IMG/VR virus record: IMGVR_UViG_3300026483_000026
Span: 1-29,808 of that record
Direction: 5' to 3' (one strand)
Source: a virus
DNA length: 29,808 nt
Part shown: positions 22,894-27,301 of the stretch, in pieces
Numbering within the stretch: position 1 is the stretch's first letter
Layout of the letters: each line of letters opens with the position of its first letter
Made by a program: the position numbers and the translations under genes
The notes under the pieces: generated by a model
What the model was told of the DNA's origin: nothing
Database searches by the model: none
Seen by the model: only the letters and a program-made list of their open reading frames with translations

Positions 22894-22930
22894 AAAAAAA
22901 GGAAAAGGGAGACTACGAATGTAGTCCCCC
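22894..22930 (-). terminator. Intrinsic terminator after the major capsid gene
   Basis: Read leftward: a 10-bp stem GGGGGACTAC/GTAGTCTCCC with one G-U pair and a four-base loop (stem arms 22921-22930 and 22907-22916). It is followed by a T-rich tract of TTTTCC plus seven T (22906-22894). It begins 12 bases after the capsid stop. It should lower transcription into the fibre genes, comparable in position to the T7 terminator after gene 10. Confidence 0.85.
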
Positions 22931-22941
22931 GATTTGTTTCC

Positions 22942-23889
22942 TTATTTAGAAACAGCGATTACTAAACCTGATTCAGGTCTAACAGTTTTAACACCATAAA
23001 GTGTATCAGCTGTCATTAAATCACCAAGATACTCTTGTTTGTATTGAGTTTGAGTTCTAACGCCCATTTGCTCAACTAAAACCATAGCATCTCTTTGAGA
23101 CATAATTGCACCAACTGTGTCAACAGCAGAAGCTGAGTTAGCTGCAGCTGTTTCAACTACTGGTAAGTTGTTAGATACATAGATATCTACACCATATAGT
23201 TGACCAATTAAGCCGTTTTGTACTGGACTAGAACTTACAAAGTCTGCAGATACATAACGGTCAATGCCCATTATTGTGCTACGAACTGATGGAGGAATTA
23301 CTAAGAATCTACCATCCATTGGAGTATCGTTATCGTCTAGTTCTTTTACTAACTCTCTGAAAGCCAAATCAGTAAATACGTCTGTTACTGCAACTGTATC
23401 AACTGCATAAGCAGCAATACCGTTAGAGCCATCAACATAAAAACTGTTTGAGTGAACAAAGTCAGAACCAGAACCATTATCATCACCAAAAGTTTTACAT
23501 AGTAAACCTAAGTCAGAATCAACTTGTTTGCCTAATGCATAACCAGCATCTTCTGTGTAAAATCTTCTTAGTGAAGGTTGTGCTTGAACATCTGTAATAT
23601 CCTCAATTAAACGAGAATACTCATAATGTTTATCTATTGAAACTTGAACTTCGCTTTCTGTAGCTGCAATCAATGTTACTTGAGTTGAAGCTGCTTTAGC
23701 AGAAGCAGAGCCACGAGTTGGTTTAGGAATGTGAATTGTATCACCTTTCTTTCCAACATGTGACATTTTGTTTACAGCGTTAGCTAATACAAGATTATTC
23801 TTGTAAGCTGCTATGATTTCATCACTCCAAATTTCAGGGATGAATGTAGCTGCTGTAGTATTTGTTACATGGTTTGAACCTAGTGCCAT
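22942..23889 (-). CDS. Major capsid protein (HK97 fold)
   Basis: 315 aa head shell protein. The segments FIPEIWSDEIIAAYKNNLVL, then HVGKKGDTIHIPKPTRG, then RRFYTEDAGYALGKQVDSDL, and GQLYGVDIYVSNNLP are characteristic of capsid proteins of short-tailed and some long-tailed marine phages. It ends VKTVRPESGLVIAVSK. No long N-terminal scaffold (delta) domain is present, which agrees with the separate scaffold gene 30 bases upstream. Strong AAAGGTGG ribosome site; promoter upstream at 25303-25331 and terminator immediately downstream, fitting high expression. Confidence 0.93.
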   Translation of the reverse strand: MALGSNHVTNTTAATFIPEIWSDEIIAAYKNNLVLANAVNKMSHVGKKGDTIHIPKPTRGSASAKAASTQVTLIAATESEVQVSIDKHYEYSRLIEDITDVQAQPSLRRFYTEDAGYALGKQVDSDLGLLCKTFGDDNGSGSDFVHSNSFYVDGSNGIAAYAVDTVAVTDVFTDLAFRELVKELDDNDTPMDGRFLVIPPSVRSTIMGIDRYVSADFVSSSPVQNGLIGQLYGVDIYVSNNLPVVETAAANSASAVDTVGAIMSQRDAMVLVEQMGVRTQTQYKQEYLGDLMTADTLYGVKTVRPESGLVIAVSK

Positions 23890-23919: not shown

Positions 23920-24783
23920 TTATCTAACTCTTCCTTCTTCATAAGCTTTTTGTATTTCATTAATATTAGCTCTATATTTTTCAGGATTGTTAGTCATTAA
24001 ATTGACTATGTCTGAACGCTTATAGATTTTACGAGATACAGGTTCTCCTGAACCCTTACCACCGGTAGAAGCTGCTTTACGCTGCTGCTTACGGTCTTCA
24101 TCATTAATAGCTTTAGTCTGCTCAACGATACCTTTGCGTTCCTTCCAAAATGAAAGTAACTCATCAGCAGCATCAAAATCATACTTATCTGCTCTTTCTA
24201 ATAACTCTACTCGTACTTTTGAACTTTTCACCCAATCACCAAATGCAGGGTCTTGTATAATATCTACATAGTCAGGGTGTTTAGTTGTTAGCTTCCCAAG
24301 AACTTCTTGCTCATTTTGCTTAACAAGTAATTCTTTTATCTGCTTCATTTCCTCAGAGCCAGATACTGCTTTAGCTACTGCCTCTTTTGGATTATCAAAA
24401 AAATCTGGTTCAGCATTGTCATTGTTGCTTAAGTTTTCTTTAGTTTCGCTAACCTTATTCTTAATAAATTCATCTACAATTTTACGAAGTTCACCAACTT
24501 CTGCACCTTGTCTACCTACTAATTTTTCAGCTTCTTGGTGCATCTGTACAACTTCTTCAATACTTTTACCAGAATACTTACCTTCAAGTTTTGGTTTTTC
24601 TGTATTTTCTACTTCTTCAGTTGCTTCAGCTACTTCTTCTGTTTCAGCAGTTTCCTGATTATTATCAGCTGCTTTTGATTCTTCTTCTGGTTTATTATCA
24701 AGCTCTGTTAATAAGTCTACCAGCTCCTCATTTTCTTGTAAATTTACTTCACTTTTATCAAGTGGGTTTGCTACTTTAGTCAT
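23920..24783 (-). CDS. Capsid scaffolding protein
   Basis: 287 aa. Very acidic N-terminal half (residues 10-65, mostly Glu/Asp/Asn), a helical, coiled-coil-like middle (IEEVVQMHQEAEKLVGRQGA) and a basic C-terminus (RSDIVNLMTNNPEKY, EGRVR) that would contact the shell. Composition and position between portal and capsid genes fit an assembly scaffold that is removed before DNA packaging. The ATG follows GGAGACATTAA. Confidence 0.85.
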   Translation of the reverse strand: MTKVANPLDKSEVNLQENEELVDLLTELDNKPEEESKAADNNQETAETEEVAEATEEVENTEKPKLEGKYSGKSIEEVVQMHQEAEKLVGRQGAEVGELRKIVDEFIKNKVSETKENLSNNDNAEPDFFDNPKEAVAKAVSGSEEMKQIKELLVKQNEQEVLGKLTTKHPDYVDIIQDPAFGDWVKSSKVRVELLERADKYDFDAADELLSFWKERKGIVEQTKAINDEDRKQQRKAASTGGKGSGEPVSRKIYKRSDIVNLMTNNPEKYRANINEIQKAYEEGRVR

Positions 24784-24817: not shown

Positions 24818-25030
24818 TTAATTATTTTTAGCACCGGCTTTCTCATGTTCTCTCGCCCATTTATCGTGATATCCGGGAAAGGTATGGTCTAATTTAAACC
24901 TAACAGGTGAAATTATCCGATTACTCATTAAATCACAATCAGGGCATTGTACTTCCTTTACATTGGATTTGGTAAAATGCTCCGTTGTGTGTCCATTAGG
25001 GCAGGTAAAATCAAACAACATTAAGCTCAT
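24818..25030 (-). CDS. Zinc-ribbon protein
   Basis: 70 aa from the ATG at 25030, which overlaps the upstream stop as ATGA; a longer version from 25108 would overlap that gene by 82 bases and has no support. Two metal-binding knuckles, CPNGH (11-15) and CPDC (30-33), form a zinc ribbon of the FmdB-like kind. It ends in a basic tail (GYHDKWAREHEKAGAKNN). It lies between portal and scaffold genes. It may be a regulator, an assembly factor or a nucleic-acid binder. Confidence 0.72.
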   Translation of the reverse strand: MSLMLFDFTCPNGHTTEHFTKSNVKEVQCPDCDLMSNRIISPVRFKLDHTFPGYHDKWAREHEKAGAKNN

Positions 25031-25296
25031 TGAAAGTTTTCCTGTCCTTCTGTACTTATGGTTTCTGATTGTAAAGTCTCGTATGAATTTTTTACAGAGT
25101 TTTCCCAATCAAGAATCCAATTCAGTATTTCCATTTGTCCTTGTGCTAAATGCAATTGCTTTGCATCTTCAAGGTTTAATAGATTTATAGATTTCATAAC
25201 ATTTTCAGTATCTTCTTTAAACTGTTTCCAACCATCAGCCATAAAGAGTTCTAAGTAATTGTTATAATATTTTTCTAATTCAGGGTCTATTATCAT
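25027..25296 (-). CDS. Small conserved protein downstream of the portal gene
   Basis: 89 aa, acidic and helical (YYNNYLELFMADGWKQFKED, then AKQLHLAQGQMEILNWILDW). Proteins with this pattern often sit between portal and scaffold in marine podoviruses (recollection); their function is unknown, and an assembly role is possible. GG lies only two bases before the ATG, too close for normal pairing, and the predicted transcription start of the promoter at 25303-25331 coincides with the A of the ATG. Translation may therefore be leaderless. Confidence 0.72.
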   Translation of the reverse strand: MIIDPELEKYYNNYLELFMADGWKQFKEDTENVMKSINLLNLEDAKQLHLAQGQMEILNWILDWENSVKNSYETLQSETISTEGQENFQ

Positions 25297-25302
25297 TTCC
25301 TT

Positions 25303-25331
25303 ATTATATCATATTTATTTTATTTTGTCAA
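25303..25331 (-). promoter_or_regulatory. Perfect consensus sigma70 promoter for the head genes
   Basis: Read leftward: TTGACA (25331-25326), exactly 17 bases, then TATAAT (25308-25303) with an extended -10 TG. Both hexamers match the E. coli consensus in every base. The -35 box overlaps the portal stop codon. Initiation would be near 25296. It is expected to give high, host-polymerase-driven expression of scaffold and capsid. Confidence 0.8.
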
Positions 25332-27301
25332 GAGTTATTATCAGAAGCCATTTTTACTTGTGATTTAGATATTTTCTCTTTAACATCTAACTCTTTTTCT
25401 TTTAGTTCTAACTCAGCGTATTTAACAAGTTTTTCAAATTCATCTAATCCCACAGACTTAGCCAATGCTGCTATTCTTTTAGTTTCTTCCTCTATAGGTA
25501 GTAACTGAGTTTCAACATTGTTTTGTTGTATTCTGGATACAATCTCTGCAGTTTGAGCTTTAAGGTTTTCAATACTAGATTTAGCTTGCTCAATAGCCAT
25601 TTGTTGTTGCATTTGTTGCATTTGTTGTTGTTCAGGGTTAGGCTGATTAACTTGTCTTAGTTGTGCTATAATAGCTTCTCTATTAGCTAATCCCATATTA
25701 TCTACAATAGACTCAACTAACATTGGGTACATTGGAGATTCTGGTGACATTGTTTGTAGTAGCTGTACTAACTGAGTTACTTCATACTCACGAGCAATAA
25801 TACCTAACGAACTAGAAGCTACAAACTTATAATCTTTTGCAGGGTATAGTTCAGGTTCAAATTGCATATATCTACAAGCAGCTTTTTCAACTAACGGAAT
25901 TAAAAAGTTTTCTTGGAAGTTAATTAAAGTACGCTTATGTCTTTTAATAATAGCACCTAATCCCATAGATATACCAGCTGCTGTTGATTCTCCATTAATA
26001 GAGCCGGGAATACCAGCTGAATCAATAGCACCTGTAGCTTGTTGTATCATAGTTTGTAGTTGTGATGCTTGACTAAAAGTTACTTGGTCTAGTTGTCCAA
26101 AGTTCATAGGTGTTAAAACTTCTTTAGGATTACCATTAGTTAAAATAGTTTTTCCCGGTCTAACATCTAACTTAGCACCTCTAGGCATACGAGAAGCATC
26201 TATACCCATCATAGGGTGTACAGTTAGTGCTAAAGCATCTATTCTTGCTCTCATTTCTGTGTCTAATGCTTTTTGTGAGTTGTAAGCTTTTTCACAAATA
26301 CCACGCCCCCAGAATTTAAATGGTACAGTATCCCAAGAAAATGCAATAACTGGTCTATCTTTTTTCATGTATGGATTGCGTTCTACTTTTAAAACTGTAT
26401 CGTCATTAGCTATAACTACAATAGCTTCTGTGTAAGTTGTTTTATTACCTTCTTCATCTTCAATCATTGTTGGAAACTCTACAACTTCATTTTCATCTGC
26501 TTCAGGCATATCTTCATCTTCTAATAAATCTGTTGGTACTAAGCCATAATATTTAGTTAGCTTAATCATATCCTGTGTATCTAACATACTAACTTTACTA
26601 GCATCTTCTAAATCAGAATCACTAGTAATACTTTCTATTTCTACATCACGATAAATACCGGAATCAATACCTTGTTGTATGCTATGCATTGATACCATTT
26701 TTTCTATAGCCACACCTAATGCATCATCTACGTTAGTAGCTAGGGGGTCTATTAAAAAGTTTTGTGGCATGATAGGGTCTATACGAACTATAACTCTTTC
26801 CTTTTTCTCTACACCAACTGCTGTTAAGCCCATCTCAGGTTGAGGTTGACTAGTAGTTTTTAATTCTGTCATTTCATCTAGTATTAGTTCACCAATACCA
26901 TTACCAAAGATAGCAGAGTTTAATAAACATTCTGCAATAGAACTACGAGCTTTTGCAAAATGCATATCTTCTTCTAATTGATTTCTTATGATTGCTACAT
27001 CCGCTGGATTATTATCTTGGAAGTCATCTTTAATATCAAAGAACTTACCACGACCAAAAGTAGCTTCTTCTATTTCTGCTACTGCTGACTCTACAGCTTG
27101 TTGGGTTGCAGGGCTAATTAATCTTGAACGCTCTGACTCTCTCATACTGTCAGATTTATCCCATATACCACGCCATATACGGTAATATTCATCATGTTTT
27201 TCTTGATAATTGCTTTGATAGTGGTCTCTCCACATCATACATTTATCACTAATCCAATCTTTTAAACTCATTTTAGTGTACATTTCATTATCATTATTCA
27301 T
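25328..27301 (-). CDS. Portal protein
   Basis: 657 aa, P22-like size. It forms the ring at the capsid vertex through which DNA enters and leaves. Typical segments are RLISPATQQAVESAVAEIEE, the PIMPQNFLIDPLA region, FKFWGRGICEKAYNSQKALD, and the stem/crown helices ending in a Gln/Met-rich barrel-like coiled coil (PEQQQMQQMQQQMAIEQA, then EEETKRIAALAKSVGL). It lies between terminase and scaffold, as usual. Ribosome site GGGA about 8 bases before the ATG, 2 bases from the terminase gene. Confidence 0.92.
   Translation of the reverse strand: MNNDNEMYTKMSLKDWISDKCMMWRDHYQSNYQEKHDEYYRIWRGIWDKSDSMRESERSRLISPATQQAVESAVAEIEEATFGRGKFFDIKDDFQDNNPADVAIIRNQLEEDMHFAKARSSIAECLLNSAIFGNGIGELILDEMTELKTTSQPQPEMGLTAVGVEKKERVIVRIDPIMPQNFLIDPLATNVDDALGVAIEKMVSMHSIQQGIDSGIYRDVEIESITSDSDLEDASKVSMLDTQDMIKLTKYYGLVPTDLLEDEDMPEADENEVVEFPTMIEDEEGNKTTYTEAIVVIANDDTVLKVERNPYMKKDRPVIAFSWDTVPFKFWGRGICEKAYNSQKALDTEMRARIDALALTVHPMMGIDASRMPRGAKLDVRPGKTILTNGNPKEVLTPMNFGQLDQVTFSQASQLQTMIQQATGAIDSAGIPGSINGESTAAGISMGLGAIIKRHKRTLINFQENFLIPLVEKAACRYMQFEPELYPAKDYKFVASSSLGIIAREYEVTQLVQLLQTMSPESPMYPMLVESIVDNMGLANREAIIAQLRQVNQPNPEQQQMQQMQQQMAIEQAKSSIENLKAQTAEIVSRIQQNNVETQLLPIEEETKRIAALAKSVGLDEFEKLVKYAELELKEKELDVKEKISKSQVKMASDNNS

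Follow-up and report, generated by a model that had tools for sequence, protein, structure and literature searches.

A conserved host-type promoter ahead of the capsid genes of an uncultured phage lineage, and the predicted loss of its leader in one clade

In the viral record IMGVR_UViG_3300026483_000026 (here called the window, meaning the whole stretch of 29,808 nucleotides analysed), a sigma70 promoter with every consensus element lies next to a start codon, which raises the question of whether it is a genuine promoter and whether its message would lack a leader. Replication genes of the 29.8 kb record lie on the plus strand; its minus strand carries the late genes, in the order terminase, portal, p89 (an 89-residue protein), a zinc-ribbon gene, scaffold, major capsid, and fibre and tail genes. 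On the minus strand, positions 25331-25294 read TTGACA-AAATAAAATAAATATGA-TATAAT-AAGGAA-ATG. The promoter (TTGACA-N14-TG-A-TATAAT, 25303..25331) comprises a -35 box at 25331-25326, a 17-nt spacer ending in TG-A and a -10 box at 25308-25303, directly followed by AAGGAA (25302-25297) and the p89 ATG (25296-25294). All 12 hexamer positions match, the spacer falls within the 16-18 nt expected of sigma70 extended -10 promoters, and the TGn element precedes the -10 box as TGA-TATAAT. The -35 box overlaps the stop codon of the portal gene (TCT TGA CA). Natural extended -10 sigma70/sigmaA promoters seldom have every element. As in the model of this class, TTGACA-17-TRTGnTATAAT, the window site is at consensus throughout, including the TRTG motif; what sets it apart from extended -10 promoters in general is that the complete set is retained across a phage lineage. 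The sequence-only reading had described a perfect promoter abutting an ATG, and this is borne out, with the addition that it lies on the minus strand: TTGACA-(15-19)-TATAAT occurs once in the whole window, as the sole full match, where shuffled sequence yields 0.07. Under a first-order Markov model, the expectation per window is 0.021 for a spacer of 17, 0.0013 when TG is included and 0.00002 when N6-ATG is also included.

Conservation of the site was assessed by applying a rule of at least 11 of 12 matches, a spacer of 17 and the presence of TG to regions upstream of p89. A promoter was found in the portal-p89 gap of 57 of 83 distinct relatives from IMG/VR, 43 of the 57 being complete (12/12), while the same rule found none in 237 control upstream regions (terL 0/33, portal 0/60, p96 0/11, scaffold 0/22, MCP 0/111). 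When p89 was clustered at 70% identity, 25 of 35 clusters had the promoter. Absence is seen mainly in more distant relatives, those whose p89 abuts or overlaps portal. Sixty-six sites were aligned by means of TTGAC and TGnTA anchors, whose bases are hence fixed by choice; outside these anchors, spacer position 18 was T and position 19 was A or G in 65 of 66 sites each, corresponding to the TRTG extended motif, and a C before TTGACA was kept in 64. A chance match in AT-rich DNA might be suspected in a window of 35% GC with many weak promoter-like sites, albeit fewer than in shuffles. The expectation of 0.0013 per window speaks against it, and recurrence at a single location (57/83 relatives, 0/237 controls) already refutes it, so that chance can be practically dismissed. 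The sequence-only reading had itself proposed looking for relatives lacking the boxes, and in that comparison the promoter held up strongly. The site is very likely a genuine conserved promoter, judging from its sequence. Searches of the literature turned up no description of the promoter in this phage group. Its individual elements are of known kinds; new are its conservation across the lineage, a T7-like module run by host polymerase and the leader loss described below.

The genes behind the promoter form, as read from their arrangement, one transcription unit consisting of promoter, p89, zinc-ribbon gene, scaffold gene, capsid gene and terminator. The portal gene (25328..27301, minus strand; phrog_1216, SU10_portal) lies immediately upstream, with no terminator before p89. 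Following p89 on the minus strand are a 70-residue zinc-ribbon-like protein (24818..25030; a weak Zn_ribbon_8 match below the cut-off), a putative scaffold protein (23920..24783; phrog_19777 head scaffolding, E 1.6e-4), the major capsid protein (22942..23889; phrog_267, E 1e-55; Phage_capsid_2) and an intrinsic terminator, GGGGGACTACATTCGTAGTCTCCC-TTTT (22907..22930). The probable start of the zinc-ribbon gene is ATG 25030, within the p89 stop codon, rather than an upstream TTG. This ATGA overlap suggests coupled translation, and the zinc-ribbon gene is probably coupled to p89. A hairpin-plus-T terminator within 100 nt behind the capsid gene is present in 57 of 93 relatives, compared with 0-4% behind other genes (terL 1/61, portal 2/79, p96 0/85, scaffold 4/100); among the matches listed, most capsid genes lacking a full terminator have the hairpin with a poorer T run. 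The sequence-only reading had taken p89 for the first gene, which does not stand as worded: p89 is mid-operon, behind terminase and portal and reachable by read-through, although it does open the capsid unit. A second perfect promoter copy was observed at the head of the late operon (L002:65, L005:1855, L006:2268, L010:593, L028:587, L033:218), approximately 1-2.5 kb before terL in close relatives; its leader spans roughly 100 nt or more. The window ends short of this position; in a near-complete relative (33.8 kb), these two copies, at the operon head and at p89, are the only ones.

This layout resembles the phi9/phi10-Tphi module of T7, where a promoter likewise separates gene 8 (portal) from gene 9 (scaffold), and a terminator (Tphi) stands just past capsid gene 10. 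However, T7 employs its own RNA polymerase and leadered messages, whereas here the promoter is of the host sigma70 type, two small genes are added and, in the window's clade, the leader is missing. A search for T7-type RNA polymerase (PF00940) found none in 17 relative contigs, which are possibly incomplete; the same search detects that of T7. By this analogy the unit appears to work like the T7 capsid module, sharing its promoter and terminator layout without being a member of that class.

The p89 gene (25027..25296, minus strand) encodes a predicted three-helix protein (AlphaFold pLDDT 90) of a family present in 121 loci. An ELEKYY segment right behind the start is conserved in the family and, from this alignment, the protein begins at ATG 25296-25294. 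No match to p89 was found among phage records, and a fold search returned only uncharacterised phage proteins as significant matches. Most of the 66 promoter-bearing relatives have 22-58 nt between the -10 box and the start codon, as a rule including a normally spaced SD-like motif. The six distinct sequences of the window's clade have gaps of 6, 6, 7, 7, 7 and 9 nt. With the predicted +1 placed about 7 bases past the -10 box, the start codon lies 0-4 nt from it in all six, within the limit of about 5 nt for a leaderless gene. Sequence comparison indicates that the clade has lost its leader while retaining the p89 N-terminus. Gaps of 11-14 nt were found in four sequences outside the clade, and the capsid tree needs three or more changes to account for short gaps, with the caveat that capsid and portal trees may conflict through recombination. 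Clade members differ by a single codon in where p89 starts (ATG-ATA in the window, AAG-ATG in L006, ATG-ATG in L007) against a fixed -10 box and AAGG, so that conservation of an exact 5' AUG is not strict. In a separate subgroup (L164:3029, L168:3049, L178:3032, L181:3054), the leader between promoter and p89 contains ACTCTCCTTGTCAAGGAaaaAGAGT, possibly a hairpin over the ribosome site.

A broader survey sampled perfect extended promoters across IMG/VR at fixed gaps between -10 box and ATG. Among the matches listed, the ATG opened a reading frame of at least 50 residues in 73/125 cases (58%) at gap 6 and 73/106 (69%) at gap 26, and in 29/104 (28%) at gap 3, 49/104 (47%) at gap 9 and 26/100 (26%) at gap 12; on these same matches, gap 6 differs from gap 3 with p 5e-6 and from gap 12 with p 1e-6. 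Two favoured gaps with a trough between them are what two distinct initiation modes predict. The trough also agrees with ribosome profiling in Lactococcus, which detected leaders either shorter than 5 nt or near 40 nt in length, but none of 4-14 nt (PMC10986495). Two further markers were set aside. A pyrimidine just before the start occurs in 89% of the gap-6 set, where the window has an A at -1, in the all-purine AAGGAA; it was rejected as a leaderless marker, at 89% of real reading frames and 79% of short ones (p 0.14). Missing SD motifs at gap 6 were dropped as evidence since the -10 box forces their absence. Many unrelated viral genes in loci L237-L314, with ligase-like and exonuclease-like N-termini among them, start 6 nt past a perfect -10 box. 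We tentatively suggest, at somewhat less than even confidence, that near-perfect host promoters set against start codons constitute a common, distinct leaderless class in phages, the capsid unit being a case of repeated leader shortening (gap of at most 14 nt, reached three or more times on the capsid tree). The survey indicates that such layouts are perhaps common enough to affect phage gene calling.

Taking these observations together, the reading we favour, and hold to be reasonably probable, is that a host-RNA-polymerase promoter drives an internal capsid-unit transcript whose p89 message is leaderless in the clade. Host RNA polymerase with its housekeeping sigma factor would start a strong internal late transcript at this site, spanning p89, the zinc-ribbon gene, scaffold and major capsid and stopping at the terminator behind the capsid gene. 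Scaffold and capsid output would thereby be raised above that of terminase and portal, which would be read solely from the operon-head promoter; more transcript for scaffold and capsid than for portal would fit their copy numbers. In the clade, the RNA would start 0-3 nt ahead of the p89 ATG, and 70S ribosomes would read p89 as a leaderless mRNA, with the next gene coupled through the ATGA overlap. Promoter activity, start position, leaderless translation and the dosage role are all inferred here from sequence. Leaderless expression of p89 in the clade is nonetheless likely. The sequence-only reading had put initiation seven bases downstream, on the A of the ATG. The leaderless part of that proposal is strengthened by the conserved N-terminus at the ATG, the clade-wide gap of 6-9 nt and the gap preference in IMG/VR; the exact +1 is not, as the all-purine AAGGAA lacks the usual pyrimidine and +1 may fall 1-2 nt earlier. 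Leaderless mRNAs have been reported to be rare in enterobacteria (PMC9031893), which would make this an odd start for a high-output unit unless the host copes well with such messages.

Known systems offer partial parallels. The cI message of lambda, transcribed from PRM, is a model leaderless mRNA (PMC9031893) and, like the predicted p89 message, a phage message starting at AUG. It differs in encoding a repressor from a weak, activated promoter, whereas the p89 unit is structural and has a near-perfect promoter with a predicted start at the AUG. An accepted mark of TA-led leaderless bacterial genes is a -10 box lying some 10-12 bp ahead of the start codon (Zheng et al., 2011; PMC3160421), and the second base of the window's TATAAT is at -11. 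Those genes were described in cellular genomes (PMC3160421), while the window case is a phage.

The scarcity of terminators between portal and p89 (2/79) opens an alternative route, in which RNA reading through from portal carries UAAGGA. The promoter would then drive scaffold and capsid, while p89 would come mainly from read-through RNA, made by ribosomes that have just completed portal and reach it by 70S scanning across the 31-nt gap, with UAAGGA. In the transcript begun at the promoter, p89 would serve only as an untranslated leader, and the lost leader would be a by-product. The hexamer AAGGAA (25297..25302, minus strand) is nearly invariant in the clade and lies upstream of the predicted +1, where it would act as a DNA discriminator; on read-through RNA, UAAGGA would be a Shine-Dalgarno placed too close. 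The sequence-only reading had held the GG pair too near the ATG for a ribosome site. The spacing agrees with this, being 1 nt in the window and in L005, where most SD-like sites of the window's remaining genes have 4-10 nt, but UAAGGA does match the anti-Shine-Dalgarno. Retention of TAAGGA through the clade, 4-5 nt from an in-frame ATG in L006-L008, would suit the read-through route. It is opposed by the 1-nt spacing, by the general enrichment of reading-frame starts at gap 6 among the IMG/VR matches listed, and by the loss that the ATGA-coupled gene would incur if p89 went untranslated; we regard it as unlikely, though deserving some weight. More improbable still is a start upstream of the assumed +1, or at an overlapping weak promoter, leaving a short leader. 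Overlapping 9/12 matches do occur at 25344-25317 and 25364-25337, and the purine run makes +1 uncertain, yet these sites are weak, their conservation was not seen in clade or family alignments, and the perfect box pins +1 to a few bases.

On the favoured reading, an uncultured phage lineage uses the host polymerase for a portal-capsid dosage step that T7 makes with its own enzyme. Relatives with and without a leader would form natural pairs in which leaderless translation can be tested directly for a phage structural unit.

With respect to the lineage itself, cultured phages are related only remotely (24% identity for portal, chiefly to HMO-2011-type phages; 29% for capsid), and Blastn against cultured phages gave no match. 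Host assignment from capsid matches in GTDB genomes was rejected, the matching contigs being binned with unrelated phyla. One relative, L022, has a capsid protein 92% identical to that of the window with a portal merely 72% identical, which probably reflects recombination between portal and capsid modules. HMO-2011, from the group of distant portal relatives (24% identity), likewise carries the perfect promoter twice on its late strand; these copies differ in place, lying at 31726 and 53368 of its record and not between portal and capsid. In the HMO-2011-like contigs L075:6688, L076:6315 and L078:6929, the same perfect promoter lies approximately 190 nt ahead of the capsid gene.
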